Shown: positions 3,325 through 47,284 of the stretch, piece after piece
Layout of the letters: each line of letters begins with the position of its first letter
Numbering within the stretch: position 1 is the first letter of the stretch
NCBI RefSeq assembly: GCF_021233055.1
Contig: NZ_CP089545.1
Span: 1 to 64,000 of the forward strand
Source: Spirosoma oryzicola
Lineage (GTDB): Bacteria > Bacteroidota > Bacteroidia > Cytophagales > Spirosomataceae
Reading direction: 5' to 3'
Length of the DNA stretch: 64,000 nucleotides
Notes under the pieces: generated by a model
What the model was told of the DNA's origin: nothing
The model's input: the letters and a program-made list of their open reading frames with translations, nothing else
The model's database searches: none
Made by a program: the position numbers and the translations under genes

Positions 3325-3519
3325 TCACGCACAAATGCGCACCTTTGCCAATCGAATATCAGTCCGATTGAATTGCCGCTGCATTTCAGTGAAGACCCAA
3401 TCAATGGCTTCATCCGGATCAGCAGCGGTAACGGCTAGATCCGTATTTAGTTGAATACTGTGGTTCGTTTCATCAAGAACGTCGAAGACAACCCGGATCA
3501 AGTGTTTCTTAGTAGCCAT
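3325..3519 (-). CDS. Small hypothetical protein (64 aa)
   Basis: The minus-strand frame extends upstream to 3582, but the ATG at 3519 gives a better N-terminus (MATKKHLIRVVFDVLDE) than the longer version, whose extra 21 residues look like translated leader. The 64-aa product is charged, with no signal peptide or membrane segment. It has a regular beta-then-helix look: an N-terminal strand-rich half and the helical stretch DEAIDWVFTEMQRQF. Codon use looks like coding sequence, and the frame is closed by a stop at 3325. Function is not recognised. It sits alone between AT-rich gaps. Confidence 0.6.
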   Translation of the reverse strand: MATKKHLIRVVFDVLDETNHSIQLNTDLAVTAADPDEAIDWVFTEMQRQFNRTDIRLAKVRICA

Positions 3520-7981: not shown

Positions 7982-8342
7982 TAAGTAAAACAACCACTTA
8001 TGACTCATCATTTATACTATTTGCTACATTTTTTACGAAAGTCGCCACAAAAGTGATAGTCGTTACTAAAGCTATCGCTGATTTTTGAGCTAACGAACTT
8101 TCCTCAGGGTAACTTCTTATTACCCTTCAATTCAAGAATAGCTTTTACATACACCGTCCGTTTGGATGGCTGATAGAAAGTGTTTATTACGTAAACTTTG
8201 CTTTTAACTAATCGAGATAATTTCTCAAAATTATTCCCAGCAAGTGTTCATCAAACAAGGCCTTTTTCTTTGAGGCTGTCACGTTTTTATCGACGGAACA
8301 AGCACTTTTTGCCGCAGTAATTAACCGGCAGTTGCTTGACTT
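7982..8342. other. Intergenic region with nothing recognised
   Basis: About 360 bp of AT-rich sequence between the hybrid sensor and the first LytTR gene. No gene or strong terminator hairpin was seen. Confidence 0.5.
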
Positions 8343-8366
8343 GTGGGCCAATTAAAGATACAATTT

Positions 8367-14230: not shown

Positions 14231-14510
14231 CTAGCGATTAAGGGTCAAGTAACGGACATACCGGCGGCCATCGCTGGTGCGAATGATGTAGTAGTAGGTA
14301 CCGTCTGGCAGACCATCGTCATCCGAACCTACCGTCACACCCGTGTTTGGCTTACCATTCCAGTTGTTTTGGTAGTCCTGGTTCTGATAGACCATCTGTC
14401 CCCAACGGTTATACACTTCCAGGCTAACCGTTAACCCCTGCATACCGCGGATGACAAATACATCGTTGACACCATCACCGTTGGGCGAGAAGCCTTCAGG
14501 AATAAAGACC
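14231..14510 (-). other. Gliding-motility-type (type B) C-terminal sorting domain of the giant protein
   Basis: The last ~90 residues contain FSPNGDGVNDVF, VYNRWGQMVYQN, WNGK, DGTYYYIIR and a final YLTLNR. This is the CHU_C/gliding-motility-associated domain recognised by the type IX machinery. It is complete, so the giant frame ends naturally. Confidence 0.93.
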
Positions 14511-20500: not shown

Positions 20501-23500
20501 TGCGGTCAACGTTACGGACGAGCCTGGGCAGACCGTGCTGGCGCTGGCCGTAATCGTCGGTGCTTTCGGATCGAGTACGGTAATGGTAATCGCATTCGAC
20601 GCACCACTCGTACAGTTATTACCCAGCACGCAGCGAGCGGTATAGGTAGTCGTTGCACTTGGCGTAGCGAAAATCGTCGTACCGGTCTTACCATCCGACC
20701 AGATTATCGTACCGCCCGCGCAACCCGTTGCCGTCAGCGTTGTTGTTCCGCCTTTGCACAACTGTGTAATCGCGCAGGCAATCGTTGGTGGTTCTGCCGA
20801 GCAGGAACAGTTCGGATTGGCTACCGTAACGGTTTGATCCTGCCAGCAACCGCCCCCGTTGAACACCCGGACCGTATACGTCTGACCACCAGCTGCATTG
20901 GTAATAATCACACCATTGGCTGGTACAGGCTGCGTTGCCGGATTCGTTAGCGTAAAGCTATTTCCTGCGGTGACCGCGTACCGGAACGAACCAGGCGTAT
21001 TATCCAATCCGTTGATCGTCACTGAACCATTCGCTTGTGGCTGGTTGCCAATACAGGTTGGTGTCTGTGAAGCCAACGTATAAGCCACTCCCGTTTCTTC
21101 TTCGATGATGATCGGACAGCACGAACCGTTGGGGCATTGTCCCTGGTTGACGTGTACCGTAAACTCACCGAGCTGCGTCGCCGTATAGGTATTACTGGTT
21201 GCCGCCGAGATTAAGGTTCCGTTGCGGTACCACTGATAGCTGCTGTAACCAGCCGGAGCCGACAGCGCTACATTGATCGGAGCACCTTTACAAACCTTAA
21301 CTGGAACCGTCGTACAAACCGTCGCTGTATCACCCGGTATAGCTACCGTGTTGTAAACGACACCCGCTTGTGTCAGGCTGGCCGAGAAAGTCAGCGTAGC
21401 CGTCGCACCGGCAGGCAAGTTATCGATTGTCCATAGGCTTGGGCTACCGATCGTGTACGTACCAGTTGTGGTCGCGATTGAACCTGGCACCAGGGCTAGC
21501 CCAGCACTCATGGATTCCTGTACGAGCACATTGGTAGCCGGTACCGTTCCTTTGTTAACCAGCGTCACCGTGTACGTCACTACCTCACCTAACCGCGCAT
21601 TAGTTTTGCTTACCTGTTTGCTGAGGTCTAATACCGGTTCAGGCGTTGGTGTTGGTGGGCACGTTGCTCCTGCCAGGCTGATAACCTTATCGGCACAACC
21701 TGCCAGACTCACCGTCAGACTCACCGGTCTACCCGATGGAATACCGCTGATCACCCCGTTACTGACCGTACCCGCGCTGGCTTTCACCGACGCTCCATTC
21801 ACCAACGTGTAGTTGACATGGTATGTGCGGCTGCCCGTCGCGTCGCAGACTGGTGCGCTCAGGCTGATGGCAGGGTTCTCGCACTTCGGTCCTGGGCAGC
21901 TGACAGCCGTCACGTTGATCGTGTTCACGCAAGTCCCGTTGGTAGCCGTTATTGCCAGGTTCGTGCCGCTCGGAATATTGATAACGGTGTTACCCGAGAC
22001 CGTACCCGCGTTCACGCTCACCGTACCACCCGTTGCATCGAAGCTAACTGAATAGGTATTGTTACCTGCGCAGATCGGCTGACCCACGCTCAAGGCAGGT
22101 GTCGTGCAAGGCGGATTTGGTGGGCAACTGGCCGGGCTGTTGACTGTCAGTGTGCTCACACAACCCGCTGATTGCGTAGCCGTCACCACAACCGCCGTAC
22201 CCACTGGGATACCCGTGATGGTATTGCCCGAGACCGTACCGGCATTAGCCGTCACGTTGGCCACACTACTCGAGAAGCCTACCGAGTATGTGTTACCATT
22301 GCAGATCGGGCTTTCTACCGTCAACACTGGCTTCTCACAAATTTTCTCACACGTGAAGGCTGGAACCGTGATGACCTTATCGGTACAGCCTGCCAGACTT
22401 ACCGTTAGGCTCACCGGTCTACCCGAAGACAGATTACTAATCACCCCATTGCTGACCGTACCCGCGCTGGCTTTCACCGACGCCCCGTTCACCAGCGTGT
22501 AGTTAAGCTGGTAGTTACCGCTGCCCGAGGCATCACAGTATGGCGCGCTCAGGCTGATGGCCGGATTCTCGCACTGTGGTCCACCGCAGTTTAGGCTAGC
22601 CACGTTGACCGTGTTCACGCAAACTCCGTTGGTAGCCGTTATTGTCAGATTCGTGCCGCTCGGAATGTTAACCACCGAATTGCCCGAGATCGTACCCGCA
22701 TTCACGCTCACCGTACCACCCACGGCATTGAAGCTTACCAAGTAGCTCGTGCCGTTGCAGATCGGCTGACCAACGCTCAACTGCGGCTGCGTGCAAGGCG
22801 GATTCGGCGGGCAGCTGGCGGGGCTGTTGACCGTCAGCGTGCTCACACAGCCTGCCGACTGCGTAGCCGTCACCACAACCGCCGTACCCACTGGAATACC
22901 CGTGATGGTATTGCCCGAGACTGTACCGGCATTAGCCGTCACATTGGCCACACTACTCAAGAAGCCCACCGAGTACGTATTGCCGTTACAGATTGGACTT
23001 TCTACCGTCAACTGTGGTTTTTCACACACGGTAGTACAGCTTGACGTTACTGTCGCGATGGCGATTGCTTTGCAGCCGTTGGCATCCGTTACCATCAAGG
23101 TGTATGCACCCGCCGTCAAATTAGTTAAGCTGGTGGCCGTCGAGCCGCCCGGACTCCAGCTGTAGCTGTAGTTACCGCTGCCGCCATTTACGCTCACCAG
23201 ACTCACACTGCCTGGCGTCGTGCAGGTAGCCGGGCTAGGCTGTACCACCACTACGATCTCCGAAGGCTGGCTGATGGTGAAGCTCTGCACACGCTGGCAA
23301 CCGCCACCGTCCCGCACCGTCACCGTGTACACACCCGCGACCACACCGCTCAAATCCTTGCTCGTCGTACCGTTGCTCCACACATAGCTGTAGCCTCCGC
23401 TGCCCCCGCTCACGGTCAGCACCACCGCGCCCGTCGCCGAGCCGTTGCACTGTACGTTGCTCACCGTACCGCTCACCACCGGAGCCGTCGTGTTGTTGAT

Positions 23501-38500: not shown

Positions 38501-41500
38501 GTCCTGAATGCCGTTGCGGTTGATGTCGTTCCACACATAGTCCCCGATGCTGGCCGTAGGTGAACAGTTGCCCGGTGAAACCGTTACGATCTTGGGTGTG
38601 CAGCTTCCGCTAAGCACCGTCAGGCTTAGGACCTGACCCGACGGAATACCGCTGATCACCCCGTTGGCCGCCACGCCCGCACTAACGCTCAGAGAAGCCC
38701 CTGCCGTCAGGGTGTAGTTGACTACGTAGGTGCCCACCGCCCCCGTCGAACACACCGGACCGCTCAGGCTGATGGCCGGGTTCTCGCAGGGCGGACACGT
38801 GGTGGGAGCCACCACGCTCACGCTGCTCATGCACGTACCGCTAGTGGCTGCGCTGATCACCAGGTTGGTGCCCAGCGGGATGTTTTCTACCGTATGGCTA
38901 GCCGCATTGACGCTACCCGCGCTTACGCTCAGGCTAGCCACCCCGTCCAGGGTGTAGCTCACCGAATAGCTGCTACCATTGCACAGCGGCTGACCCACCG
39001 TCAGACGAGGCTGCACGCACACCGTCGGATCGTTGGGATCGGTCGGCGGATTCGCCGGACAAGCCGCTGGCGACGCGACCATCGAGATGTTCATGCAACC
39101 CGCCCCCGTCATGGCTGTTATGCTCACCGGACTGCCCACAGCAATGCCCGTGATGCGCCGGTTGGCCGCATCCACACTGCCCGCGCTGGCCGTTACCATA
39201 CTGGTCGAGCTGTAGAAGCTCACGCTGTAGCTGCCCGTGCCCGTGCAGGCGGGGTTACCCACCGTCAACACCGGCTTCTCACACACCACCGGGCAGGTGG
39301 CCGGCGAAACCGTTACGATCTTGGGTGTGCAGCTTCCGCTAAGCACCGTCAGGCTTAGGACCTGACCCGACGGAATACCGCTGATCACCCCGTTGGCCGC
39401 CACGCCCGCACTAACGCTCAAAGAAGCGCCCGCCGTCAGGGTGTAGTTGACCACGTAGGTGCCCACCGCCCCCGTCGAACACACCGGACCGCTCAGGCTG
39501 ATGGCCGGGTTCTCGCAGGGCGGACACGTGGTGGGAGCCACCACGCTCACGCTGCTCATGCACGTACCGCTAGTGGCCGCGCTGATCACCAGGTTGGTGC
39601 CCAGCGGGATGTTTTCTACCGTATGGCTAGCCGCATTGACGCTACCCGCGCTTACGCTCAGGCTAGCCACCCCGTCCAGGGTGTAGCTCACCGAATAGCT
39701 GCTACCATTGCACAGCGGCTGACCCACCGTCAGACGAGGCTGCACGCACACCGTCGGATCGTTGGGATCGGTCGGCGGATTCGCCGGACAAGCCGCTGGC
39801 GACGCGACCATCGAGATGTTCATGCAACCCGCCCCCGTCATGGCTGTTATGCTCACCGGACTGCCCACAGCAATGCCCGTGATGCGCCGGTTGGCCGCAT
39901 CCACACTGCCCGCGCTGGCCGTTACCATACTGGTCGAGCTGTAGATAGCCACGCTATAGCTGCCCGTGCCCGTGCAGGCGGGGTTACCCACCGTCAACAC
40001 CGGCTTCTCGCACACCACCGGTATTATCCCGGCATCTATCGAAAGTAATTGTTGGCTAGCGGTAATACTGAACGGAGAAGTGGTACCAACGTTACCCGTT
40101 GAGCTTGTAACCTTGCTGTTGGTATCCTGTGGACCCGTGTTGGGTACGGTGAACGTCGTACCAGTTGGAGCGGTGAACTTAACTACGTATTGACCCGGTT
40201 CAACGTTAGTAAACAGATATTTGCCGTTGCCGTCGGTCATCGTCGTTGAGACAACAGCGCCGGTGGTAGCGTTAATCAATTCTACAGTTACGTTTTTCAC
40301 ACCTTGTTCTCCAGCATCCTGCTGACCATCCTTGTCGGTATCGTACCACACATAGTCACCAACCATAGCCGGAGGAATGAAGCCAAAATCGTAGGTATGG
40401 TTATTATCCCCATCTGCACCCGTTACTAGTGTGATGGAAGGAACACCCCCAACCAAGAATGCGTCATTATTAGTAATCGTGCTACCCGTATTTATGTTAC
40501 CCGCAGTTTCTCCGGGAGCTATGGTAACAGCCGTCAACGAGATGCCTGCTGTAGAAATGTCAGATCCCATTGACGGAATTGACAGGACGTATTTAGTCCG
40601 TTGCGTTAGCTGAATACCATATTTCTCACTGCCGTTACTTATGCGTCCCGGTTGATTCGAGAAGATATAGTTTCCTTCATTGTCTGTAACATTGGTAGCA
40701 ATGATGTTACCCGATTCGTCCGCTAGCTGGACAATGACACCCGCTAACGGAGGTTCGCCTGCATCTTGAATACCATTTTTATTCGCATCAGCCCAAACAC
40801 GGTTCCCGATTTCAATAGATGGCGTTGCATCACAAACTTGTTGCGTACCCGTGATTCGGCTGATTTTTTGACCATATGTCAAGCCAGTTCCATAGAGTTG
40901 CGTTCCGTTGGTCAGGCTCATGTAAGTTGATCCCATCGAATACGGACCGGCGGGATCGGTATACCCTGCAACCACTTCGTTAGTACCTGATTTTATAAAC
41001 AGGCCTCCGTTGAACTGGTAGTTATGCCCAGGAACCCGTGCTGATTGCCGGAAGAAGAACTTCCCACCAGGACCGCCCGTCGGGATCGGTGTTATGTTAA
41101 CTCCCGTTGTATAGGGTCCTAGTACACCTGCATTTTCTAAAGCATAGTTTCCATTAGCATCTTTCCAAGCTCCCAACACATAACCAGTTTGGTTTCCCGT
41201 AGTAGTGGATCCGTAAGCTAAGCGGTTGGTTGTACCAATAACCATCAGCCCGTTATCGGCAAAGGCCAGATCTATGACAACGGGTTGGATGACTTGCGAC
41301 GTATTGGTGGCGGCAGTAGCCCAGTGGACAGGCGTATACCCATTCGCATTAACACTTACGGAAGTACCCCCTCCCGTAAAGTTAAGCGGATAGGCAAGTT
41401 CTTGTTTCCACGTATTTGTTGCTGGATCATACGAGACAATTACAGCTTTTAATGATCCATTGTTCTGACTGATCGAAGCGTCACAGACACCTCCCATGTA

Positions 41501-44500
41501 CAGTTTACCTCCAAACTGGCGTAAAGCGGCTGGTCGCCAAATGCCACCGCTACAATTTGCTAATGATGCTGGAGGAGTGAGAGTCGTAGCACTCGTTGGT
41601 TTTGAAGCCGGTAACGTTGCATAGTTTACGTTACTGATGTCTAGCTGAACCAAGCTACGATTGTACATATTGACGACATACAGTGTCTTACCGTCCGTCG
41701 AAAAATCCATTCCACCTAATCCTTGGACGCCAAAGGTGTTTCCGCCTAGTGCAGCAGTCGTAGGGCCAACGTTTATCCCTAGATCAGAGAGTCGTACTAG
41801 TAGTTTATTGTTCTGATATGTTTGAGAACCATTCGGGGAATTGTAATTGGCAATGTATATGGCCGATGAGCCTCCCGGAGCCATGGGGAATACCCCCGCT
41901 ACATCTGATGAGATGGGCGACATATATACCAGATTACTACCCTTCTGCGCTGCCAGGCCAAGCGGTACCCCAACCTGGGCAGCGGTCAAATCACTGTTGC
42001 GACTTGCTGCTGTAGGATAGTTCGTTCCATTAGCTACACCCCTATCATAGTAGTTGTAAGAAGATACTGAATAATCATAATTTGATAGGCCAGTACCTGC
42101 TACTACCCGTGGATTGTCGTTGAAGCTACACACAGTGCTTGGTACATACAACCCATAATCGTGTCCTTGCGTGGCACCCAGAACAAACTGAATAGACGTT
42201 CCATTGTCTGGTCCCTCTGTAGATGATACCAGTTCTGGACGGTTCAGCGCAGAGAATTCGAGCCTATACGGTTGTCCAGTGGCTAAGTTGTTAAAATTAT
42301 AGTATCCTGAGGGTATGTTTAGGGTTGGGTTTCCATAGGAGGTAGTTGTTGTCCCAACCAGAGTACCGCTAGCATTATACGCTTTTACCGTAACCCCTCC
42401 GACACCTTGTTCATTGCTATTGCGTATACCGTTCACATTACCGTCCAGAAAAACAATGCCGCTCGTATTTCCAGATGAGACACAGTTGTAAACAGGATGA
42501 GTAACGGCATCTACCGAGAATGAGGTGGCTTTCGTTACCAACTGCACATAGCGGGCGTTGACAGGTAACGTTAGTGTATTCATTGTTGTAATAACCGTTG
42601 ACGACGAAGGAGTCATCTGGCCAATATTAGTGTAAGGGCCACCCAAATTTGTCGCTACTAACACTTGCAGCGGTGCCGTCTGATCCACCGAACGATACGT
42701 AACGTTTAGACTACTCCCGCCAGCCACGACACTGCCGAAGTCAACGGTCAATGAAGAGTTTGCACCCAGCGAAGCAAACGTACCATCCGCTGTGCCGACT
42801 GCGTTGGTTGGCGTGGTTACCGTACCTGTTATCCCGTTGGTTCCAGTTGCACCCTGATTGAAACTTGTTACTTCCTGACCTGGACCGCAAAGATCGGATG
42901 GACTTGTTACACAAGAATATTTGGGATAAGTGACAGCGTCAAGTGAATAAGCCGTACCTGTTGTTTGAATCTGTACAAACTGAGCATCAACCGGTAGAAG
43001 CACATAACTAGTCGTTGCCGCAACGGAGCCATTAAGCTGTTCGATGTTGATCCACGGACCGTTGGCATTTGTGGCAACCAGAATCTGTAGTGGAGCAGTT
43101 GTATTGGCTGAGTAGTACGTGAACGCTAAATAGTTTCCGCCTTTGATAGTACTACCCAAATTAAGCACAATCGAGGAATTAGCCGCTAGCGATGCAATCG
43201 CTCCATCAGGGCTACCTGTTGCATTTTGAGTGTTAGTTACAGTTCCGGTTGTTGCGCCTACGATTTGTGCGCCGGTTTGGTAGCTCACCGACTGTTGGTT
43301 GCCTGTACAACTCGTTACAACAGACGACACACAAGCATAAACTGGATAAGTAACGGCGTCGATTAGATACGGCGTTCCGCTGGTTTGTACCTGGACGTAC
43401 TGAGCATCAGTCGGTAACGTTATATTTCTTGTTACATAGGTTGGGCTAGACGACAACTGACCAATATTTACGAAAGGCCCACCCGCTGATGTGGCAACCA
43501 GAATCTGTAACGGAGCAGTTGTTGTTCCAGACGTAGCATACGTCACGTAAAGCTGGTTACCAGCGCTGACCGTACTGCCCAAATCAAGGATTAATGATGA
43601 GTTGGCGGACAGTGTGGCTACTGTTCCATTGCGATTGCCGACGATGTTTGTAGCCGTTGCAACTGTACCAGTTGTAGCACCAACACCGCTTGCACCTGCT
43701 TGGTAGCTTACTGACTGTTGTCCACCCGTACAACTCGTAACAGGCGTGGTAATGCACGAGTAACTAGTGTATGAAACGGCATCGACATTATACGGCGTAC
43801 CTGTTGTTTGCACTTGTATATACCGAGCATCGAACGGTAGGAATAAGCTATACGTTGAATTTACCGTGGCACCCGGTGCCTGAGCTATATTGGTCCAAGG
43901 TCCAGCAACGTCTGTCGCTACCAATATTTGTAAAGGTGCAGCGGAGTTGGTCGATGAGTACGTTACATTGACGATGTTCCCTCCTGTGATTGTACTACCT
44001 AAATCGAGAATTAATGATGAGTTGGCGGCCAACGTTGCGACGGTTCCATTGAGCGGCCCTACTGCGTTTGTAGCTCCTGAAACAGTCCCGGTTGTTGCGC
44101 CTGCCCCCTGAGTACCGACGGGATAAGAAACCAACTGCTGGCCAGCAGCGCAAGTCGTAGATGGTGGTGTTACACAGCTATAGGAAGGATACACTACAGC
44201 ATCCGGTGAGAAAGCGGTAGCTGTGGTCTGGAATTTAACGTACCGGGCATTGATCGGTAACAACACACCTTTTTCCGTTCTGCTCGTAGAACCAGGTAAC
44301 TGATCAATATTCGTATAAGGACCACCCAAATTTGTCGCTACCAAAACTTGCATCGGTGCCGTAGAATTGGCTGACGAGTAAGTTACATATAGCGTATTAC
44401 CTGCCGTCACAACTGACCCCATGTCAATAACCTGCGATGAATTGGCAGCAATATTTGCTACAGTACCATCGGGTACACCTATCAGATTTGTGCCGTTTGC

Positions 44501-47284
44501 CACCGTTCCTGTCGTCGTATTAGTACCCTGAGCACCAATATCATAACTAACGGAACGCTGCCCAGCAGGACAAGTCGTATTTGGTAAACTTACACAGGTA
44601 TAAACCGGGTAGGTCGCAGCATCTACAGAGAAGGAAGTAGCTTTGGTTAACAACTGGACGTACCGAGCACTGATTGGTAAAACAATCGAGTTAGTTCCTG
44701 CAATTGTTCTGCCGGTTAACTGACCTATGTTTGTGAACGGTCCGGTGGATGTATTCCCTACCAACACCTGCAACGGGGCCGTGGTGTTAGCTGAGTAATA
44801 CGTCACGTTGAGGGGCGTTCCAGCCTGTATTACGTCACCCATATCAAGCACCAATGAGGCATTAGCGCTCAGCGCTGCGAGCGCTCCATCCGCGCTACCC
44901 GCGACGAAAGTCGGATTAGAAACAGTACCCGTCGAAGCACCGACTCCTTGAGCGCCAACCTCATAACTTGCTGACTGCTGCCCAGCAGGACAGGTAGTTG
45001 AGATAGGCGTGATACACTGGTTGACCGTTCGGGTAATGGCATCGATAGAGTAGCCTGTCACACTCGTTCGCACTTGTACATACTGCGCGTCGAAAGGCAA
45101 GGGGATGAAATAAGTTGTCCTAGCCGTACTACCGGGAACCTGCGCGATATTTGTATAAGGCCCGGCCGCTGAGGTTGCAATAAGCACCTGCATTGGGGCC
45201 GACGTGTTGACCGAAGAATAGGTGATGTTTATACCATCACCTGCGGTAAGTGGCACCCCCAAATCCAGAGTCAACGAGGAGTTTACTGTCAAGGATGTCA
45301 GCGCACCATCGGTTACACCCAGTGCATTGGCTGTAGAACTGACGGTCCCAGTGGTACCAGCAACGGCTACTGAGCCCACCTCATAACTGACGGACTCCTG
45401 CCCGGCTGTTGTACAACTAGCGGGATTGTTGACACATAAGTAAACTGTATTCGTTATCGCATCCAGTGAGTAGGCAGTACCCGTTGTTTGCACTTGTACA
45501 TACCGAGCATCAAGAGGCAATACTAATGATGCAGTGGTAGCAACGGTGCTAGGCGGCACTTGGCCGACGTTTGTATAAGGCCCTAAAAAGTTAGTTGCTA
45601 CGAGAATCTGTAACGGGGAAGTCGTGTTTGCCGAGAAGTAGTTTATATTCAAACTATTACCCGCTGAAATAACACGCTCCATGTCAAGAGTAATTCCAGT
45701 AGATGTACCGATCGTAGCATACACGCCATCCGGGGTAAATCCTGAACTAGTACTACTCGTAACATTACCATAGTTTACACTTGGGGAATTTGACGCACCA
45801 ATTTCGTAGTTGACTGATTGTTGACCACTTGGACAAACGGTGACAGGTGTGGCAACACAGACATTTTCGAGTCGAGTTATTGCATCAAGGCTATAGTCAG
45901 TACCAATCGTTCGAACTCGTACGTACTGCGCGTTGATTGGTAAGGTTAACGTAACTGTTGACGTACTTGTGTTAGGATCTAGCTGACCAATGTATACGTA
46001 GGGCCCTCCGACATTAGTAGCTACTAATATCTGTGCTGGTGCATTGTTATTAGTCGATGAATAAACAAAGGATATTTCACCACCAGCGCTAACAGCACTA
46101 CCCATATTAAGCGTTACTGTTGAATTGGCATTGATTACAGCAAATAGGCCATCAGGAGGGCCTGTGCTATTGGTAACGTCTACAACGGTACCCGTTTGTC
46201 CATTAATACCTTCGGCTCCGACTGGATAGCTGATCTGCTGTAATCCAGTAGCACAAGTAACTGATTGTGGGCTAATACAACGATAAACGGAATATGTCAC
46301 CGCATCCAAATTGAGCCCAGTTGCCGTTGTTGTCAATCTGACATATTTTGCATTAAAAGGCAAAAGCACATTACTGGTCGTTGTGATTGACGAAGTAACT
46401 GGCAGTTGGGCTACATTGGTAAAAGTTACGTTGTCAGTAGACACTAATACTTGTATTGGCGCAGTGGAATTACTAGTAGAGTACGTAAAAACTAAGTTGT
46501 TTCCCGCTGCTACAACGTTACCCATATCCAGAGTGATACCTGAATTGGCCGTGACAGAGGCTAGCAAGCCATCGGGCGCTCCTGTACTGTTATTACCGTT
46601 TGTTACACCACCCGTTGTGCTATTGACAGAGCTTGCTCCTGCTGGATACGTTGCTATTTGCTGGCTACCCGTACAGACTGGCGCTGGATTATTAACACAA
46701 CGGTAAACGGGATAAGCAACAGCATCTACACTGTAAGCAGTACCAGTGGCTACAAGCTGGACGTATTGTGCATCCACTGGTAGTGTCAGACTCGTAGTAC
46801 TTAAGTATAGATTACTTCCTGTCAGTTGGGCAATGTTAGTCCAAGGTCCATCAACATCTGAGGCCACCAGAACTTGCAAAGGTGCGGTCGCATTGGCTGG
46901 TCGAAAGGTAACGTTTAAATTACCTCCCACAGGCACAACTTGCCCCAGATCTAATGTAAGTGTTGAGTTCGTATTAACTGTTGCTACGTTACCATCAGGG
47001 ACGTTAAGTGCACTGGCACTGCTAGCAACGGTACCAGTCGATGCGCTTACCGCACCTGCTCCAACGAAATAGCCCGTCAGAATTTGGTTGGCATCGCAAG
47101 CAGGAATTTGCGCTTTAAGCAGTAATGGGGTAAGGATAAGTCCAATAATAACCGCTGCTCGCCGGGATTTCTGACTTATCAAAAAGGCAAAAAGCCAGAG
47201 CATTGTTATCCGACTGGCACTAGTTTGACTGATGCTACGGATGGCGTTAACAAGAAACGGCGTGTATCGTACAAATGTCTTCAT
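14231..47284 (-). CDS. Giant (11,017 aa) multidomain surface adhesin with type IX secretion type B sorting domain
   Basis: One uninterrupted frame of 33,054 bp. Architecture by approximate residue: signal segment (1-58, ending LLLKA); eleven ~140-aa modules (60-1600); an SdrD_B-like domain (NGIRNSNEQGVGGV, about 1605) and a propeller-like region with FSTDGKTLYVVN (about 1700-2150); SdrD_B domains with Ca-loop motifs such as DANKNGIQDAGE (2150-2420); Cys-paired cassettes (2420-2910); SdrD_B array (2910-4450); SprB repeats (4450-4600); six further cassettes (4600-6120); more of the same types (to 6500); SprB superunits (6500-8085); cassettes, a DUF11 repeat and Ig-like repeats (8085-9800); a PKD-like and further modules (9800-10140); DUF11 repeats (10140-10925); and a gliding-motility C-terminal domain (about 10928-11017, FIPEGFSPNGDGVNDVF, VYNRWGQMVY). 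The C-terminal domain directs export and surface attachment by the type IX system. A fibre-like adhesin role is inferred from SprB. The repeat content makes exact length sensitive to assembly. Confidence 0.93.
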   Translation of the reverse strand: MKTFVRYTPFLVNAIRSISQTSASRITMLWLFAFLISQKSRRAAVIIGLILTPLLLKAQIPACDANQILTGYFVGAGAVSASTGTVASSASALNVPDGNVATVNTNSTLTLDLGQVVPVGGNLNVTFRPANATAPLQVLVASDVDGPWTNIAQLTGSNLYLSTTSLTLPVDAQYVQLVATGTAYSVDAVAYPVYRCVNNPAPVCTGSQQIATYPAGASSVNSTTGGVTNGNNSTGAPDGLLASVTANSGITLDMGNVVAAGNNLVFTYSTSNSTAPIQVLVSTDNVTFTNVAQLPVTSSITTTSNVLLPFNAKYVRLTTTATGLNLDAVTYSVYRCISPQSVTCATGLQQISYPVGAEGINGQTGTVVDVTNSTGPPDGLFAVINANSTVTLNMGSAVSAGGEISFVYSSTNNNAPAQILVATNVGGPYVYIGQLDPNTSTSTVTLTLPINAQYVRVRTIGTDYSLDAITRLENVCVATPVTVCPSGQQSVNYEIGASNSPSVNYGNVTSSTSSGFTPDGVYATIGTSTGITLDMERVISAGNSLNINYFSANTTSPLQILVATNFLGPYTNVGQVPPSTVATTASLVLPLDARYVQVQTTGTAYSLDAITNTVYLCVNNPASCTTAGQESVSYEVGSVAVAGTTGTVSSTANALGVTDGALTSLTVNSSLTLDLGVPLTAGDGINITYSSVNTSAPMQVLIATSAAGPYTNIAQVPGSTARTTYFIPLPFDAQYVQVRTSVTGYSIDAITRTVNQCITPISTTCPAGQQSASYEVGAQGVGASTGTVSNPTFVAGSADGALAALSANASLVLDMGDVIQAGTPLNVTYYSANTTAPLQVLVGNTSTGPFTNIGQLTGRTIAGTNSIVLPISARYVQLLTKATSFSVDAATYPVYTCVSLPNTTCPAGQRSVSYDIGAQGTNTTTGTVANGTNLIGVPDGTVANIAANSSQVIDMGSVVTAGNTLYVTYSSANSTAPMQVLVATNLGGPYTNIDQLPGSTSRTEKGVLLPINARYVKFQTTATAFSPDAVVYPSYSCVTPPSTTCAAGQQLVSYPVGTQGAGATTGTVSGATNAVGPLNGTVATLAANSSLILDLGSTITGGNIVNVTYSSTNSAAPLQILVATDVAGPWTNIAQAPGATVNSTYSLFLPFDARYIQVQTTGTPYNVDAVSYTSYSCITTPVTSCTGGQQSVSYQAGASGVGATTGTVATATNIVGNRNGTVATLSANSSLILDLGSTVSAGNQLYVTYATSGTTTAPLQILVATSAGGPFVNIGQLSSSPTYVTRNITLPTDAQYVQVQTSGTPYLIDAVTYPVYACVSSVVTSCTGNQQSVSYQTGAQIVGATTGTVTNTQNATGSPDGAIASLAANSSIVLNLGSTIKGGNYLAFTYYSANTTAPLQILVATNANGPWINIEQLNGSVAATTSYVLLPVDAQFVQIQTTGTAYSLDAVTYPKYSCVTSPSDLCGPGQEVTSFNQGATGTNGITGTVTTPTNAVGTADGTFASLGANSSLTVDFGSVVAGGSSLNVTYRSVDQTAPLQVLVATNLGGPYTNIGQMTPSSSTVITTMNTLTLPVNARYVQLVTKATSFSVDAVTHPVYNCVSSGNTSGIVFLDGNVNGIRNSNEQGVGGVTVKAYNASGTLVGTTTTSYGNPTLNIPSGYYNFNNLATGQPYRLEFSALNRPELVSSTEGPDNGTSIQFVLGATQGHDYGLYVPSTVCSFNDNPRVVAGTGLSNYDYSVSSYNYYDRGVANGTNYPTAASRNSDLTAAQVGVPLGLAAQKGSNLVYMSPISSDVAGVFPMAPGGSSAIYIANYNSPNGSQTYQNNKLLVRLSDLGINVGPTTAALGGNTFGVQGLGGMDFSTDGKTLYVVNMYNRSLVQLDISNVNYATLPASKPTSATTLTPPASLANCSGGIWRPAALRQFGGKLYMGGVCDASISQNNGSLKAVIVSYDPATNTWKQELAYPLNFTGGGTSVSVNANGYTPVHWATAATNTSQVIQPVVIDLAFADNGLMVIGTTNRLAYGSTTTGNQTGYVLGAWKDANGNYALENAGVLGPYTTGVNITPIPTGGPGGKFFFRQSARVPGHNYQFNGGLFIKSGTNEVVAGYTDPAGPYSMGSTYMSLTNGTQLYGTGLTYGQKISRITGTQQVCDATPSIEIGNRVWADANKNGIQDAGEPPLAGVIVQLADESGNIIATNVTDNEGNYIFSNQPGRISNGSEKYGIQLTQRTKYVLSIPSMGSDISTAGISLTAVTIAPGETAGNINTGSTITNNDAFLVGGVPSITLVTGADGDNNHTYDFGFIPPAMVGDYVWYDTDKDGQQDAGEQGVKNVTVELINATTGAVVSTTMTDGNGKYLFTNVEPGQYVVKFTAPTGTTFTVPNTGPQDTNSKVTSSTGNVGTTSPFSITASQQLLSIDAGIIPVVCEKPVLTVGNPACTGTGSYSVAIYSSTSMVTASAGSVDAANRRITGIAVGSPVSITAMTGAGCMNISMVASPAACPANPPTDPNDPTVCVQPRLTVGQPLCNGSSYSVSYTLDGVASLSVSAGSVNAASHTVENIPLGTNLVISAATSGTCMSSVSVVAPTTCPPCENPAISLSGPVCSTGAVGTYVVNYTLTAGASLSVSAGVAANGVISGIPSGQVLSLTVLSGSCTPKIVTVSPATCPVVCEKPVLTVGNPACTGTGSYSVSFYSSTSMVTASAGSVDAANRRITGIAVGSPVSITAMTGAGCMNISMVASPAACPANPPTDPNDPTVCVQPRLTVGQPLCNGSSYSVSYTLDGVASLSVSAGSVNAASHTVENIPLGTNLVISAATSGTCMSSVSVVAPTTCPPCENPAISLSGPVCSTGAVGTYVVNYTLTAGASLSVSAGVAANGVISGIPSGQVLSLTVLSGSCTPKIVTVSPGNCSPTASIGDYVWNDINRNGIQDASDTPLANVLVTLYVNGVASATTVTSSTGAYSFTGLTGGSSTSYSVGFTTPAGYTATLANQGGDDTKDSDVDPVTGRTQSVTLAPGENNSTLDAGFYSPTASIGDYVWNDTNGNGIQDADERGIPNVPVTLYVNGVASATTVTSSTGAYSFTGLTGGSSTSYSVGVSPPAGYTATLPNQGSDPTKDSNLNPATGQTASFTLAPGETNNTIDVGLYSPKASLGDYVWLDANRNGQQDGGETGVSSVTVVLHNATTGAVVSTTTTNGSGNYLFTNLDAGSYYVVFTAPSGMTFTAANVGSDATDSDVASTTGASGSTGVYSLSAGESNLTVDAGLVPLQATIGDYVWNDTNGNGIQDADERGIPNVPVTLYVNGVASQTVLTSSTGAYSFTGLTGGSSTSYSVGVSPPAGYTATLPNQGSDPTKDSNLNPATGQTASFTLAPGETNNTIDVGLYSPKASLGDYVWLDANRNGQQDGGETGVSSVTVVLHNATTGAVVSTTTTNGSGNYLFTNLDAGSYYVVFTAPSGMTFTAANVGSDATDSDVASTTGASGSTGVYSLSAGESNLTVDAGLVPLQATIGDYVWNDTNGNGIQDADERGIPNVPVTLYVNGVASQTVLTSSTGAYSFTGLTGGSSTSYSVGVSPPAGYTATLPNQGSDPTKDSNLNPATGQTASFTLAPGETNNTIDVGLYSPKASLGDYVWLDANRNGQQDGGETGVSSVTVVLHNATTGAVVSTTTTNGSGNYLFTNLDAGSYYVVFTAPSGMTFTAANVGSDATDSDVASTTGASGSTGVYSLSAGESNLTVDAGLVPLQATIGDYVWNDTNGNGIQDADERGIPNVPVTLYVNGVASQTVLTSSTGAYSFTGLTGGSSTSYSVGVSPPAGYTATLPNQGSDPTKDSNLNPATGQTASFTLAPGETNNTIDVGLYSPKASLGDYVWLDANRNGQQDGGETGVSSVTVVLHNATTGAVVSTTTTNGSGNYLFTNLDAGSYYVVFTAPSGMTFTAANVGSDATDSDVASTTGASGSTGVYSLSAGESNLTVDAGLVPLQATIGDYVWNDTNGNGIQDADERGIPNVPVTLYVNGVASQTVLTSSTGAYSFTGLTGGSSTSYSVGVSPPAGYTATLPNQGSDPTKDSNLNPATGQTASFTLAPGETNNTIDVGLYSPKASLGDYVWLDANRNGQQDGGETGVSSVTVVLHNATTGAVVSTTTTNGSGNYLFTNLDAGSYYVIFTAPSGMTFTAANVGSDATDSDVASTTGASGSTGVYSLSAGESNLTVDAGLIPLQATIGDFVWNDTNQNGIQDADERGIPNVPVTLYVNGVASATTVTSSTGAYSFTGLTGGSSTSYSVGVSPPAGYTATLPNQGSDPTKDSNLNPATGQTASFTLAPGETNNTIDVGLYSPKASLGDYVWLDANRNGQQDGGETGVSSVTVVLHNATTGAVVSTTTTNGSGNYLFTNLDAGSYYVVFTAPSGMTFTAANVGSDATDSDVASTTGASGSTGVYSLSAGESNLTVDAGLIPICSTINILATVNNVKCTATATGTISITATGGTQPYTYLWSNNTTNKDLVNVSTGVYSVVVTDANNCKSDPRSFTITEPTPITAVVQPTSALCPDNTGGTLTVTSISGGTAPYNLVWSTGATQVYSLTGLSGGAYTLTVTDANNCLAIVPAVVSKPDCPTVCQKPVLTVGNPACTGSASYSISFYSSVASVTANVGTVSGGRIINIPVNTPVSVTAVGGGGCVSIETVYPPVSCTPPGQNDCTQPRLTVGQPICNGSTYTVSYTLDGPGSLSVNAGSINVANHTIENIAVSTNLIISASSGSCVTGISVTSPARCDDPCENPAISLSGPVCSTGAVGTYVVNYTLTAGTTVRVSSGQAANGIISGVASGVPLSLTVSASGCGDKVVTVPPATCPVVVCEKPVLTVGNPACTGTGSYSVSFYSSTSMVTASAGSVDVANWRITGIPVGSPVSVSASNGLGCVSVLSVASPTICPPTPTDCVQPRLTVGQPLCNGNTYSVSYTLDGVASLSVSAGRINAASHTVENIPLGTNLVISAATSSTCMSSVSVVAPTTCPPCENPAISLSGPVCSTGAVGTYVVNYTLTAGASLSVSAGVAANGVISGIPSGQVLSLTVLSGSCTPKIVTVSPATCPVVCEKPVLTVGNPACTGTGSYSVSFYSSSQAITASAGTISGNSVINIPLGSPVSVSASNGLGCVSVLSVASPTICPPTPTDCVQPRLTVGQPLCNGSSYSVSYTLDGVGSVSVNAGTMSGNSVINIPLGTNLVISAATSSTCMSSVSVVAPTTCPPCENPAISLSGPVCSTGAVGTYVVNYTLTAGATVRVSSGQAANGVISGVASGVPLSLTVSASGCGDKVVTVPPATCPVVVCEKPVLTVGNPACTGTGSYSVSFYSSTSMVTASAGSVDVANWRITGIPVGSPVSVSASNGLGCVSVLSVASPTICPPTPTDCVQPRLTVGQPLCNGNTYSVSYTLDGVASVSVNAGRINVASHTVENIPLGTNLVISAATSGTCMSSVSVVTPTTCPPCENPAISLSGPVCSTGAVGTYVVNYTLTAGASLSVSAGVAANGVISGIPSGQVLSLTVLSGSCTPKIVTVSPATCPVVCEKPVLTVGNPACTGTGSYSVSFYSSSQAITASAGTISGNSVINIPLGSPVSVSASNGLGCVSVLSVASPTICPPTPTDCVQPRLTVGQPLCNGNTYSVSYTLDGVASVSVNAGRINVASHTVENIPLGTNLVISAATSGTCMSSVSVVTPTTCPPCENPAISLSGPVCSTGAVGTYVVNYTLTAGASLSVSAGVAANGVISGIPSGQVLSLTVLSGSCTPKIVTVSPATCPVVCEKPVLTVGNPACTGTGSYSVSFYSSSQAITASAGSVDVANWRITGIPVGSPVSVSASNGLGCVSVLSVASPTICPPTPTDCVQPRLTVGQPLCNGNTYSVSYTLDGVASVSVNAGRINVASHTVENIPLGTNLVISAATSGTCMSSVSVVTPTTCPPCENPAISLSGPVCSTGAVGTYVVNYTLTAGATVRVSSGQAANGVISGVASGVPLSLTVSASGCGDKVVTVPPATCPVVVCEKPVLTVGNPACTGTGSYSVSFYSSTSMVTASAGSVDVANWRITGIPVGSPVSVSASNGLGCVSVLSVASPAECPPKELCPSELKLTVGQPLCNNNGTYTISYTLDGPGSVSVNVGTIVGNLVTNIPSTTDLVVSARISADCPITSYTVTHPNCPIDPPCTNPAITLSGPACAGDGSTYVVNYIVTTGTSVSASAGVVNNGVISGIPLGQPLSLTIIAPNSCTIKMVRVPSAVCPPVCRKPILMVGNVSCTGANSYSVVFTSSVANVTANAGVVNVAAGTITNIPLGTAVTVTASAGAGCMNSQTVASPVDCNCPLPQLTVGQPVCSGDGFYTVSYTLERPASLSVSAGSVVGNTVTNIPAGVDVVISAWLNTSCLTSITVAKQDCRRNIPTCENPGITLSGPVCATDGRATYAVNYTLTAATTLAANAGVVSNGTISSIPLSQVFSLTITKSGCTPEIVSVRPPARCVMPVPCIPIGLNTGVALTTCGQANGAASVVVNVGSGTAPYMYQWTNASGTAISSASIVTGLAPGRYMITVTDANGCQGTNSVLINSSNGPLLTTSVTNTGCGQANGSAQVIVRGGSGSYRYQWISAAGTTVGSTSAIAGLAGGIYTVQVTDAGGCSSLTTVTVGTSNPVQLSTQVQSAACGQSTGSATVTASGGIGNYTYQWRNAAGVVVATTSSLTSATSGSYTILVTDAASCSSVATVNINNLPGPAVNGVVTNVLCKGATSGAISLNVTGGTPPVSYLWSNGKTDANLTGVSAGIYTVTVRDNNGCQTIESFTVTQPTEIVAQIERTDATCFVPGSVTVVSTEGGKAPYRYSWSPGGSTATSLTGLTGGNYTLTVTDDNGCQAIAVASIVTPTDCATACTLPGINIGITRANCGQSNGILVAYVTPGSGTAPFTYQWTNATGSSVGSTSAVSGLAPGQYTVVVTDSKGCTGTNTVGLGSDSGLSLTASVLANTSCGQTNGSARVTVSGGSGSYTYRWTNASGTVISTGADLLNVGPGVYSVQVSDGVNRCSSMTSVVIGTSSPINLISQVQPATCGQSTGTASVTASGGSGTYTYRWTNANGAVVSTGATLSNAASGSYTVVVSDVAGCSTFVVLTINNTTAPVVSGTVSNVQCNGSATGSVVLTVTGGTPPVAYQWSNGTTNKDLTGVVAGVYTVTVRDVGGCQSVQSFTISQPSEIVAEINPTNATCNALGSVSLVSVNGGKAPYRYSWTNAAGAVVATTGSLTGLTGGNYTLTVTDDNGCQAIAVASIVTPTDCATACTLPGINIGITRANCGQSNGILVAYVTPGSGTAPFTYQWTNATGSSVGSTSAVSGLAPGQYTVVVTDSKGCTGTNTVGLGSDSGLSLTASVLANTSCGQTNGSARVTVSGGSGSYTYRWTNAAGAVVSTSATLANAPAGIYTVQVDAGGCSSLTSVTIGTSNPLQLSTQVQSAACGAATGSASVSVSGGSGSYTYRWTNAAGAVVSTSDTLSNAASGSYTVVVGDGSGCSSSAVVSINNTTAPVVSGTVSNVQCNGSATGAVVLTVSGGSGGYSYVWSNGTTSKDLSGVVAGVYTVTVRDGGGCQRVQSFTISQPSEIVVVVQPSPATCTNLSGGSVSLVSVNGGSGNYSYSWSPGGSTATSLSGLTGGVYTLTVTDAKGCKAMAIATVVTPTDCATACALPGINVGITLASCGQANGVAVVNINPGSGTAPYRYQWTNANGTVIGSDNNTISGLLAGSYKVLVTDSKGCTATKEVNVGSTSGVSLSASVLTNTSCGQANGSASVSVSGGSGSYTYRWTNASGTVVSTGSALVSAPAGVYTVQVSDASGCSSLTSVTIGTSNPLQLSTQIQSAACGAATGSASVSVSGGSGSYTYRWTNATGAVVSTSATLSNAASGSYTVVVGDGSGCSSSAVVSINNTTAPVVSGTVSNVQCNGSATGAVVLTVSGGSGGYSYVWSNGTTSKDLSGVVAGVYTVTVRDGGGCQRVQSFTISQPSEIVVVVQPSPATCTTPGSVSLVSVNGGSGNYSYSWSPGGSTATSLTNLTAGAYTLMVTDANGCKAIAIATVTSSCTTVCEKPQLTVESPICNGNTYSVGFLSSVANVTANAGTVSGNTITGIPVGTAVVVTATQSAGCVSTLTVNSPASCPPNPPCTQPQLSVGQPICNGTSYLVSFNAVGGTVSVNAGTISGNSVVNIPSGTNLTITATNGVCVNTVNVASLNCGGPQCENPAISLSAPYCDASGSGNYQLNYTLVNGASVKASAGTVSNGVISNLSSGRPVSLTVSLAGCTDKVITVPAFTCEKICEKPVLTVESPICNGNTYSVGFSSSVANVTANAGTVSGNTITGIPVGTAVVVTATQSAGCVSTLTVNSPASCPPNPPCTTPALSVGQPICAGNNTYSVSFDATGGTVSVNAGTVSGNTVINIPSGTNLAITATNGTCVNTINVTAVSCPGPKCENPAISLSAPVCDATGSRTYHVNYTLVNGASVKASAGTVSNGVISGIPSGRPVSLTVSLAGCADKVISLAGATCPPTPTPEPVLDLSKQVSKTNARLGEVVTYTVTLVNKGTVPATNVLVQESMSAGLALVPGSIATTTGTYTIGSPSLWTIDNLPAGATATLTFSASLTQAGVVYNTVAIPGDTATVCTTVPVKVCKGAPINVALSAPAGYSSYQWYRNGTLISAATSNTYTATQLGEFTVHVNQGQCPNGSCCPIIIEEETGVAYTLASQTPTCIGNQPQANGSVTINGLDNTPGSFRYAVTAGNSFTLTNPATQPVPANGVIITNAAGGQTYTVRVFNGGGCWQDQTVTVANPNCSCSAEPPTIACAITQLCKGGTTTLTATGCAGGTIIWSDGKTGTTIFATPSATTTYTARCVLGNNCTSGASNAITITVLDPKAPTITASASTVCPGSSVTLTASGCTGGTIEWSEGAQKGNSIVVNPNTRTTYTAQCRMGGCLSSPGTKTLEMGSDMPAPTLTSSVTGVCPGGSAILTVTGCEGTPVWSHTTATGTSLVVTPTAGNNTYWVYCKNGACTSKASSVLTINVITPTAPRITASADTICVKGQVTLTAADCGGTVKWSTGQTGTSITVQPEATISYLAYCQTDACLSNASNAVKVTVVNPVAPIVKASKLLVCSGEAVELTATGCTGIVQWHGINQQGSTVVIYPTQTAEYYATCKQGACESPASNKVRVTVNSSGGTPPTISASSPNTCSGGTVSLTATGCAGGTIKWSDGQTGSVVTVTPTTASHEYYALCQVGTACGSSKSNVININVTSTPTPTVVCSTDSICVGETVTLTAQNCTGTPRWSTGETTSSIVVSPTVTTGYTVQCSDANCTSPSSKTYTITVVTVPLPTLTASATAVEPGGTVTLTASGCPGEIIWSANDINGNNKGAILVVRPEGTQTYYAQCKFHDCLSDPSLTITINKGDCVVQAGTLKAVSPTVCASTSSTVVVAAAPNGGLLQPEGYSVLYVLTKGTERIVQQMAATPSFTVGAETADYTIHTLVYKAQATDKNYLNLSAIQAGISTGADLLRLITDQKVCAALDLTGAKIAVRYVAPPKLLAGPSLTVCSGSEATLTALGCEGGTITWSDGSIGHSIKKTIHADLWLMATCTLDGCTSAQSASIDVHLGTPNIPAIATNTPAICTSETVSLTATGCTGGTYIWSDPASTTGSVLTVTPTATTEYRVKCKLGQCESNWSAANTITVGTPAAPTVSLAGSGVNTGVCAGTPVTLVAEGCLATSEVIWSTGQIGRSITVTPTATVTYTARCRNSTNCSSTASNPVTVTLMNTVAAPTVVDKTNTCPFTTVDLSSAVTSKPVTTGGTFAYYTDATLKTPVANPAAVGSGTYYVVEKTTNGCSSQPVAIHVQITTCQEQTPCDEKNPATADAGADASICAAKTYQLAGKMGGSAKTAHWTTSGSGSFDNAYALNAVYTASAGDILAGTVTLTLSASAGSVNCPVATDQLVLSIQGSSAVPVVSILGSTKFCAGDSVTLRAPAGATSYKWNTNATTQSIVVKTGGSYSVQVLDAGGCSSVKSADVVVDVAAPLAPPLVHNLRNECPAKIVDLTKGLSSTSVGSSYIYRICECNTSNIVMRPDSVCEGTYWVVEKGPTGCLSAPSKIEVKVFNCAADTLNTDVRITKLASTAYVSNGAPVSYTVTVTNAGPHTAKNIDVRDVLPAGLSLVYASPTSYSVSNGVIKQRIDSLKVGESRQLVYAAHVIKKGQAIVNTAEVTYLDNKDLNGANNSSSVTVRDTSAARTGVIGLAKAVVGTPRAVGDSLIRVSYGFVVTNFGDDTLQNVHVTDDLARVFAPNTIREVLVRASDAKLVPEFSWTTGTGTNTQPGLTTSLLPGGSQHFTIDVTLKRALGNTSKSFNNTAYVSALSHGVTVADSSVAGINPDPDNDGNPVNNTGATSFTLGVSAPTGPGIGVALAVIKIQPQADNSYNVTYKATVKNVGNVNLTNVSLSDSLIRAFSAPASYAVVGKPVVGAGSTLVANTSYDGHTQPDLLARASSLAVGVQDTILITVNVKPNGAVGPFYASATAVGLTPANQAVTDISNTGLDPKPEGSTPTGVRFDLPSALLGVAKSVGTPALVQAGIYDIPYTITLSNMGQLPLYNVQVVDNLSQTFGHGALIVDNRIHLTTDTGLKADTLYTGQGLVTKMLVDSLSSLPVGTSRQVSFTVRVNAKNADALTFYNTAYATAQTAEGRAVADTSTAGTNPDPANTLDPRTSNLPTPVSLNQLLTGSYIGVAMAVADTARQPNGSYNVTYQIVLQNFGPDTLTKVSVSDSLTKVFNGQTGARYTVVKAPITSSTGSQLVVNPHFDGDSQPQLVLGEPGSVLLPGVVDTIRVVVNVTSSGNTSTFLNSVYAQAFNRTGLVDDVSTNGLIADLNGNQNPTDDNEREATPLTLPLDNSAVFIPEGFSPNGDGVNDVFVIRGMQGLTVSLEVYNRWGQMVYQNQDYQNNWNGKPNTGVTVGSDDDGLPDGTYYYIIRTSDGRRYVRYLTLNR
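14510..16860 (-). repeat. Five DUF11-type repeats near the C-terminus of the giant protein
   Basis: Five repeats of about 150 aa start with motifs such as VSYTVTVTNAGPHTAKNI, VSYGFVVTNFGDDTLQNV, VTYKATVKNVGNVNLTNV, IPYTITLSNMGQLPLYNV and VTYQIVLQNFGPDTLTKV. DUF11 units are beta-sandwich stalk domains. A sixth, more canonical copy lies at about 21300-21640. Confidence 0.8.
17880..20815 (-). repeat. About eleven Ig-like Cys-containing repeats (~85 aa) in the giant protein
   Basis: Each unit follows the pattern APTITAS-x-xVCPGSSVTLTA-x-GC-x-GG-x-IWS-x-G, then a YxAxC strand. Two to three cysteines recur at fixed positions, suggesting an internal disulfide in each. The copies are diverged at DNA level, unlike the tandem array at 33.9-38.2 kb. 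Confidence 0.75.
23040..27790 (-). repeat. Four ~1.2-kb superunits of SprB-type repeats in the giant protein
   Basis: SprB-like units (for example GGSGSYTYRWTNASG, then GVYTVQVSDA-x-GC) are grouped in superunits of about 400 aa that begin with CALPGINVGIT or CTLPGINIGIT. DNA of neighbouring superunits matches at an offset of about 1,200 bp (23253 with 24453; 25075 with 26281). Stretches of several hundred bases are almost identical, which points to recent duplication. A further short SprB stretch lies at about 33480-33920. Confidence 0.85.
28930..33475 (-). repeat. Array of six Cys-paired ~236-aa cassettes in the giant protein
   Basis: Each cassette has three related subunits in fixed order: CEKPVLTVGNPACTG, CVQPRLTVGQPLCNG and CENPAISLSGPVCSTG. 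DNA periods between equivalent points are 708, 702, 711, 696 and 711 bp (29403, 30111, 30813, 31524, 32220, 32931). Copies differ in patches, as if segments had been shuffled between them. No known domain family was recognised for the subunits. Confidence 0.85.
33944..38209 (-). repeat. Six tandem 711-bp repeats, each encoding two SdrD_B-like domains
   Basis: Copies start at 33944, 34655, 35366, 36077, 36788 and 37499, exactly 711 bp (237 codons) apart. Each encodes one IGDYVWNDTNGNGIQD domain and one LGDYVWLDANRNGQQD domain, both with calcium-loop motifs. The inner copies appear identical over their length by eye; the outer copies show a few changes near their ends (for example ATIGDFVWNDTNQNG in the last unit of the protein). 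Confidence 0.95.
38560..40020 (-). repeat. Two Cys-paired cassettes with 729-bp period
   Basis: The same three-subunit cassette as at 28.9-33.5 kb, present twice with a 729-bp period (38730 and 39459). The extra length comes mainly from a short NPPTDPNDPT linker. These lie on the N-terminal side of the SdrD_B array, so the array is bracketed by the same cassette type. Confidence 0.85.
42490..47110 (-). repeat. Eleven N-terminal ~140-aa modules of an unrecognised type in the giant protein
   Basis: Units open with a Cys and a motif like CPAGQQSVSYEVGAQG. They continue with DG-x-A-x-L-x-ANSSL-x-LDLG, APLQVLVATN-x-GGPYTNI and LP-x-DARYVQVQT, and end with SVDAVTYPVY-x-C. The pattern suggests a jelly-roll-like beta sandwich similar in outline to discoidin or carbohydrate-binding folds, but I cannot assign a named family. 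Copies are diverged in DNA and protein. Confidence 0.8.

Follow-up and report, generated by a model that had tools for sequence, protein, structure and literature searches.

A gene on a probable plasmid of Spirosoma oryzicola for an 11,017-residue type IX secretion substrate, probably a static adhesin

The stretch of DNA analysed here, hereafter the window, comprises bases 1-64000 of contig C8 (NZ_CP089545.1) of Spirosoma oryzicola (assembly GCF_021233055.1) and carries a single 33-kb gene for a protein of 11,017 amino acids (aa), hereafter the giant, which is a predicted type B substrate of the type IX secretion system (T9SS). The explanation that best accounts for the data, to which a probability of about 70% is assigned, is that the giant is a plasmid-borne surface adhesin, exported by the type B route and acting as a static, multivalent sticky arm on a stalk. 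It is ordinary in kind, being a T9SS type B adhesin, and unusual in its size for the family, its chimeric build, its plasmid location and its lineage-matched secretion end; an earlier note on this DNA had missed both the plasmid and the composite make-up of the chain.

The gene lies on the minus strand (14231..47284) and is read from an ATG at 47284 to a TAG at 14231, with 11,017 codons and no internal stop (11,024 codons when measured from stop to stop); the longest opposite-strand frame within the region has 343 codons. The unbroken frame described in the earlier note, which gave no strand, is therefore confirmed. SprB of Flavobacterium johnsoniae is reportedly about 6,500 aa long. The computed mass of the giant chain, about 1,105 kDa, bears out the claim that it is larger than SprB, for which 669 kDa is given in the available text of PMC9143113. 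The giant is the longest frame among the family matches listed, the next longest being of 5,650 aa (with the propeller-like segment) and 5,342 aa (with cassettes), and when 462 candidates were scored in a database search confined to proteins of 5.5-17.5 thousand aa, 10 relatives came up, with lengths of 5.7-7.9 thousand aa. It is no size record overall: the earlier note went too far in ranking it with the longest proteins to be expected of bacteria, as Fuerstia has a gene of 36,239 bp (PMC5177795) and Omnitrophota an open reading frame (ORF) of 39,678 aa (PMC10066038), both of them longer, and with 67 bacterial plasmids encoding a protein of more than 5,000 aa in UniProtKB (PMC11573180, available text) size alone is not new.

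The G+C content of the gene is 56.4%, against 49% for the remainder of the contig. At third codon positions G+C is 0.40-0.42 over residues 1-2,000 and reaches 0.83 near the SdrD_B array, a pattern consistent with a mosaic whose segments differ in age or origin. Comparison of the gene with itself by BLAST revealed a stretch of 2,550 bp that is repeated exactly and, at about 96-98% DNA identity, six copies of a 711-bp unit. The copy number of this unit may be wrong in the assembly; since 711 is a multiple of 3, miscounted copies would leave the frame intact. Tandem Repeats Finder, whose longest period was 500, reported no repeats in the gene because the units are 711 bp long.

The protein is a chimera of differing segments (Table 1), in which Pfam recognizes 16 SdrD_B stretches, 2 + 17 SprB stretches (the 17 of PF13573 within aa 4602-8601), five Ig_7 stretches and 1 + 5 DUF11 stretches. 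These classes, together with the Cys-rich cassettes detected by pattern, are those named in the earlier note, whose unrecognised N-terminal modules also exist and correspond to 11 copies of a unit of about 140 aa resembling F5/8C; its general picture of a stalk-like, T9SS-type surface protein with specialised segments is supported. The first 59 residues, judged by eye, are likely an extended Sec signal peptide, and the counterpart in S. telluris begins with a similar leader (MKTFVR...LLVKAQ). The label "propeller-like" used for part of aa 1603-2303 was read from the sequence alone.

Table 1. Segments of the giant protein, from N to C terminus, and neighbouring genes in the window.
Feature	Residues	Position	Strand	Basis or remark
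N-terminal leader, hydrophobic stretch then AQ/IPAC	1-59	47108..47284	-	by eye
11 tandem ~140-aa galactose-binding-like units (F5/8C, CBM32-like jelly-roll)	63-1602	42479..47098	-	pattern, Pfam, model
SdrD_B-like unit, propeller-like segment, SdrD_B unit	1603-2303	40376..42478	-	62% identical to G011 and G024
SdrD_B unit	2304-2421	40022..40375	-	
Cassette block 1, Cys-rich Ig-like, 6 units	2422-2906	38567..40021	-	
SdrD_B array	2907-4449	33938..38566	-	aa 3031-4447: 6 copies of 711-bp two-domain unit
A/B-junction stretch with two SprB-like repeats (between the parts that form genes A and B of relatives)	4450-4608	33461..33937	-	
Cassette block 2, largest, CEKP/CVQP/CENP trios	4609-6490	27815..33460	-	
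SprB repeats	6491-8083	23036..27814	-	
Cassette block 3, 6 units	8084-8547	21644..23035	-	
C-terminal segment: Ig_7 repeats, DUF11 repeats, type B sorting domain	8815-11017	14234..20842	-	66% identical to host's chromosomal 3,199-aa adhesin
CHU_C / TIGR04131 type B T9SS sorting domain		14264..14503	-	
PorP/SprF-family shuttle gene		13238..14218	-	326 aa, no cysteine; 88% identical to shuttle beside chromosomal adhesin
FG-GAP / UnbV_ASPIC protein gene directly upstream of the giant		47487..49001	-	Pfam; similar genes upstream in relatives
ParA-type ATPase gene (plasmid partition)		51679..52341	+	
Rep3 plasmid replication initiator gene		59921..60814	+	70% identical to Runella plasmid Rep

Ten starts of the N-terminal unit were found by pattern, the first of them spanning two units, which gives 11 copies; Pfam scores F5/8 type C at 58.3 bits over the whole 1,601-aa stretch, with no single copy above the gathering threshold. 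One unit was modelled as a jelly-roll with a predicted local distance difference test (pLDDT) score of 85.6, and Foldseek found 29 matches to this model in the PDB at E<=0.001, the best being CBM29, CBM32, CBM6 and fucose lectin, with non-lectin discoidin-like folds also among the matches. Its template modelling (TM) score is 0.54-0.62 to most CBM29, CBM32 and fucose-lectin rows, with a root-mean-square deviation of 4-9, and TM-scores by model length span 0.35-0.62 among the best 50 rows. The modelled fold suggests that the units may bind carbohydrate, the jelly-roll tip being the part that would bind the target. The cassettes measure about 77 aa each, typically with four cysteines, and are mostly arranged in trios; about 36 were counted (35 starts by pattern and one unit, in a 160-residue gap, by eye), and Pfam scans of the giant returned no family of their own. 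The model of one trio (pLDDT 83.7) gave weak fold matches to immunoglobulin (Ig) and fibronectin III domains.

At the C terminus, TIGR04131 matches with 44.4 bits (cut-off 35) over positions 3-85 of 85, so that the sorting domain is complete, as had been noted, and CHU_C matches with 82 bits (cut-off 27). The PorP/SprF shuttle gene begins 12 bp past the stop of the giant (264 bits, cut-off 90.55), and the T9SS core is present in the genome, with SprA_N at 493 bits and GldK (441 bits) and GldL (226 bits) both above cut-off. According to the available text of PMC12618676, a PorP/SprF gene directly 3' of a type B substrate is the usual arrangement (9 of 12 in F. johnsoniae), and there and in the available text of PMC9143113 type B substrates are said to depend on PorP/SprF-like shuttles, which also hold them at the surface. 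The proposal of an undescribed system therefore does not hold, the arrangement having been described and the C-terminal 877 aa being matched in 31 of the 35 other genomes of the genus.

The giant chain would pass the Sec pathway and then the T9SS translocon, and the shuttle would catch it by its last ~100 residues and remain bound to it. With about 100 beta-sandwich domains and a length of perhaps 0.3-0.4 micrometre when fully extended, the chain would project from the cell as a stalk carrying the 11 carbohydrate-binding-like domains at its far, N-terminal tip, the middle blocks acting as spacers stiffened by Ca2+ (SdrD_B) and by disulfides (cassettes). The chromosomal operon of the related adhesin includes the adhesin gene (3,199 aa), a PorP/SprF gene, a gene for a PorE-like protein (L022:3678-6149; TPR, PD40, CarboxypepD_reg and OmpA domains) and another PorP/SprF-family gene. 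Because the plasmid shuttle is 88% identical to the shuttle of this operon, the plasmid-made complex would most likely dock on the chromosomal PorE-like wall anchor and be held still. In F. johnsoniae, two substrates able to use each other's shuttle are 68% identical over their last 100 aa (PMC12618676, available text), and the corresponding value for the giant and the chromosomal adhesin, 80%, lies above this. Such a multivalent arm would attach to polysaccharide, to surfaces or to other cells, as in a biofilm, rather than act as a gliding leg, and the curli-type cluster on the same plasmid was counted in favour of an attachment arm. The main weakness of this explanation is that no PorE-like gene was found on the plasmid, none of the 22 OmpA-family matches of the genome lying on C8.

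That absence is what would be expected if the giant were a gliding adhesin like SprB, travelling along the gliding track and moving the cell, since the mobile type B proteins of F. johnsoniae have no PorE-like gene in their operons and PorE-linked ones are static or proposed to be so (PMC12618676 and PMC9143113, available text); SprB repeats, a type B C-terminal domain and a PorP/SprF shuttle are present as well. A role in gliding is nevertheless judged improbable. SprF requires a Cys-Xaa-Cys tail, bonding to GldK, for gliding in F. johnsoniae (PMC12635249, available text), whereas the plasmid shuttle has no cysteine and hence no such tail, so that an SprF-type disulfide to the gliding track cannot form and static anchoring becomes likelier than gliding, with the reservation that the rule comes from F. 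johnsoniae and not from Spirosoma. Cysteine-free shuttles also stand beside the core protein, the counterpart of the chromosomal adhesin, in three genomes (G000, G001, G003) and beside arm proteins in two (G011, G005). Among three other shuttles of the genome that were examined, one (C1:5423225) has a single cysteine four residues before its end (LPCPKF) and would be a better candidate for gliding. Moreover, the paralogous chromosomal operon carries a PorE-like gene, and no match to GldJ came near the curated threshold of 458 bits, the best scoring 155, a weak argument, as a single GldJ model was tried. The "gliding-motility" sorting domain of the earlier note is accordingly no proof of gliding, since static type B substrates exist and the track-attachment cysteines are missing from the plasmid shuttle.

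Still less probable is a grappling hook for the capture of prey or other cells (ixotrophy), as formed by GhpA of Aureispira. When the C-terminal 2,478 aa of the giant were compared by sequence with the PDB, GhpA was the sole chain matched (E 6.5e-11, three stretches), and fragments of it occur among the weak fold matches of the cassettes; however, the best of the three stretches is the sorting domain, common to type B substrates generally, and of the other two pieces searched, neither the cassette block aa 4604-6489 nor the N-terminal 2,303 aa gave a match to GhpA.

Relatives in the genus bear on the possibility of an assembly error. The jelly-roll array (1,551-aa query) has matches in 5 of 36 genus genomes, the source genome included, the others being G011, G017 (S. 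panaciterrae), G024 (S. sp. 48-14) and G033 (S. telluris), while the C-terminal 877 aa are matched in 32 of 36, mostly within one protein of about 2.8-4.9 thousand aa. At the level of the family, the cassette trio (A1, E<=1e-20) is found in 15 of 222 genomes, eight of them Spirosoma, and the propeller-like segment (A3, E<=1e-40) in at least 65 of 222. In a genome of another genus of the family (G084:C24:154429-156564) this segment scores 1,064 bits, against 933 for the S. panaciterrae copy, and may have been transferred. Shuttle-linked B genes with cassettes and a sorting domain occur in G005, G011, G017, G024 and G033. In G011, similar content is split over three adjacent ORFs (4,517, 2,108 and 5,342 aa), of which the third carries the sorting domain and is linked to a shuttle; in G005, the shuttle-linked B-type ORF measures 4,547 aa and comes after a 970-aa ORF without a jelly-roll match; and in G024 and G017 the A and B pieces lie on different contigs. 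Copy 1 of the S. telluris locus, about 28.2 kb, is broadly collinear with the giant over its whole length, from residue 1 up to and including the sorting domain, and matches the A/B-junction stretch, although one of its cassette blocks comes after and not before the SdrD_B array, its SprB block is shorter and its repeats match several places; copy 2 has a fresh start in mid-locus. Both copies and the core gene of S. telluris are broken by many frame changes, which we read, without proof, as sequencing errors, and for this reason a single continuous frame in S. telluris is unproven.

FG-GAP/UnbV-like genes, recognized by their tails, also lie upstream in G011, G024, G017 (two) and at S. telluris locus 1, with locus 2 assigned by eye; Pfam was applied to the window copy only. 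The A-type ORFs L041 4959-18512 and L040 323-10327 and the ORF preceding the B gene of G005 (L048 1388-4297) lack CHU_C and end in a short two-cysteine tail (for example CTSPNCFTTITVK or CPTCTTSITVK) which resembles that of the FG-GAP/UnbV proteins and is possibly another C-terminal signal. A loose pattern for this tail matched 11 of 242 open frames of 200 or more codons, of which six are FG-GAP and two A-type, and three (L026, L048, L051) resemble out-of-frame noise.

An artefact in which adjoining genes were fused, or the repeat number inflated, would agree with the separate ORFs of G011, the restart in S. telluris copy 2 and the exact 2,550-bp repeat, but it is the least probable of the alternatives, as the collinear S. 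telluris counterpart, which shares the leader and also matches the junction stretch, speaks against fusion, much broken as its frame is, and the junction stretch lies outside the near-identical repeat array.

The descent of the C terminus was followed separately. Over about 2,200 aa it is 66-68% identical to the chromosomal adhesin of the same genome, and in a tree of 29 C-terminal rows, two of them with under half of the columns filled and seven labelled arm-bearing, the giant groups as sister with the chromosomal core of its own genome (100/99). The arm proteins of G005, G017 and G024 form one clade beside the cores of these three genomes (100/99), and G011 and two partial S. telluris rows have no resolved placement. 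The arm label requires four changes on the tree, three of them forced by supported branches, and a single origin appears in none of 200 bootstrap trees; with so few changes reached in 7 of 500 shuffles of the label, it shows clustering as well. Over the last 100 aa, arm protein and own core are 99% identical in G005, 90% in G017, 92% in G024 and 78% in G011. For the giant the value is 80%, and of the 28 rows compared with it none is nearer than its own core, the second reaching 78%. At the DNA level, giant and core share 77% over 2.4 kb, so that the end of the giant is not a recent copy of the core in its own genome, and window-by-window identity shows a mosaic in which aa 9251-9400 are closer to other B proteins. 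From these comparisons we tentatively suggest, at clearly less than even odds, that giant arms (jelly-roll tip, cassettes and SprB blocks) move between Spirosoma replicons, here to a plasmid, repeatedly gaining, or being converted to, the shuttle and the C-terminal module for secretion and anchoring that belong to the chromosomal adhesin of the host lineage. If arms are exchangeable in this way, a mobile arm would fit the resident secretion system.

Contig C8 (136,743 bases, in a genome of 7.33 Mb and 10 contigs, with contig C1 of 5.71 Mb) is probably a plasmid, on the basis of its Rep3 and ParA genes. Reading across its ends gives one frame of 1,641 codons beginning as CheB-CheR; although frames equally long arose at 79 of 1000 random junctions and no terminal overlap was found when looked for, the contig is probably circular. 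Among 72,556 PLSDB records, from which those nearest the source genome may be excluded, none reaches 80% coverage of either end of the giant (N-terminal 2,303 aa, C-terminal 2,478 aa), local matches being found in 28 and 15 records, respectively. Among the papers listed for Spirosoma, T9SS, plasmids and SdrD_B, exclusive of subscription papers and preprints, none concerns the giant protein as judged by titles and abstract openings. The same contig carries a curli-type cluster (92493-97023; L007:12493-17023) with two curlin-repeat proteins, CsgE, CsgF and CsgG, and at 71024-79289 (L006:11024-19289) an apparent PP2C-type phosphatase and two Ser/Thr kinases, assigned by eye, followed by a 1,323-aa protein in which Pfam, run on that protein only, finds FtsW/RodA and penicillin-binding transpeptidase domains in a single chain. 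The last 4 bases of the Rep3 gene are shared with a DUF1016/YhcG-type PDDEXK nuclease gene on the opposite strand (window 60811-61770), and two hybrid two-component regulators (Reg_prop, Y_Y_Y, HisKA, HTH_18) are encoded on the plasmid, at window 3998-7981 and at L020 2808-7064.

The giant shows how an adhesin outsize for its family may be built, with the separate genes of a relative as one frame, repeats amplified into almost identical copies and a secretion end like that of the host's own adhesin. It also offers a test case for why some type B adhesins are static and others mobile, given a cysteine-free shuttle and a PorE-like gene elsewhere in the genome, and for whether two near-identical shuttles serve two substrates. 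If the plasmid is mobile, a giant T9SS adhesin together with a curli-type cluster would make attachment a transferable trait.

Among known systems, the type B adhesin encoded on the host chromosome and its counterparts in the genus are closest in the C-terminal part and in the shuttle; the chromosomal adhesin differs in its length of 3,199 aa and in the PorE-like gene of its operon, and by blastp it matches the giant only at one SdrD_B unit and the C-terminal part, having no jelly-roll array, cassettes or SprB blocks. The A- and B-type genes of other Spirosoma share jelly-roll arrays, cassettes, sorting domain and shuttle-linked B genes with the giant, but are separate ORFs in G011 and S. telluris copy 2. 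The SdrD-type proteins of staphylococci, whose export and anchoring differ from those of a T9SS giant, have only the SdrD_B domain in common with it. GhpA (Aureispira sp. CCB-QB1, 5,898 aa, PDB 9flp and others) is likewise a giant T9SS protein with a type B C-terminal domain, the Aureispira grappling hook being secreted by T9SS (PMC11205867, available text), and shows no sequence match to aa 4604-6489 or 1-2303. With SprB/SprF of F. johnsoniae, finally, the giant shares the character of a giant repetitive type B substrate, the SprB repeats and the PorP/SprF shuttle, whereas it is about 1.65 times heavier, is encoded on a plasmid and has a shuttle without the twin-cysteine tail.
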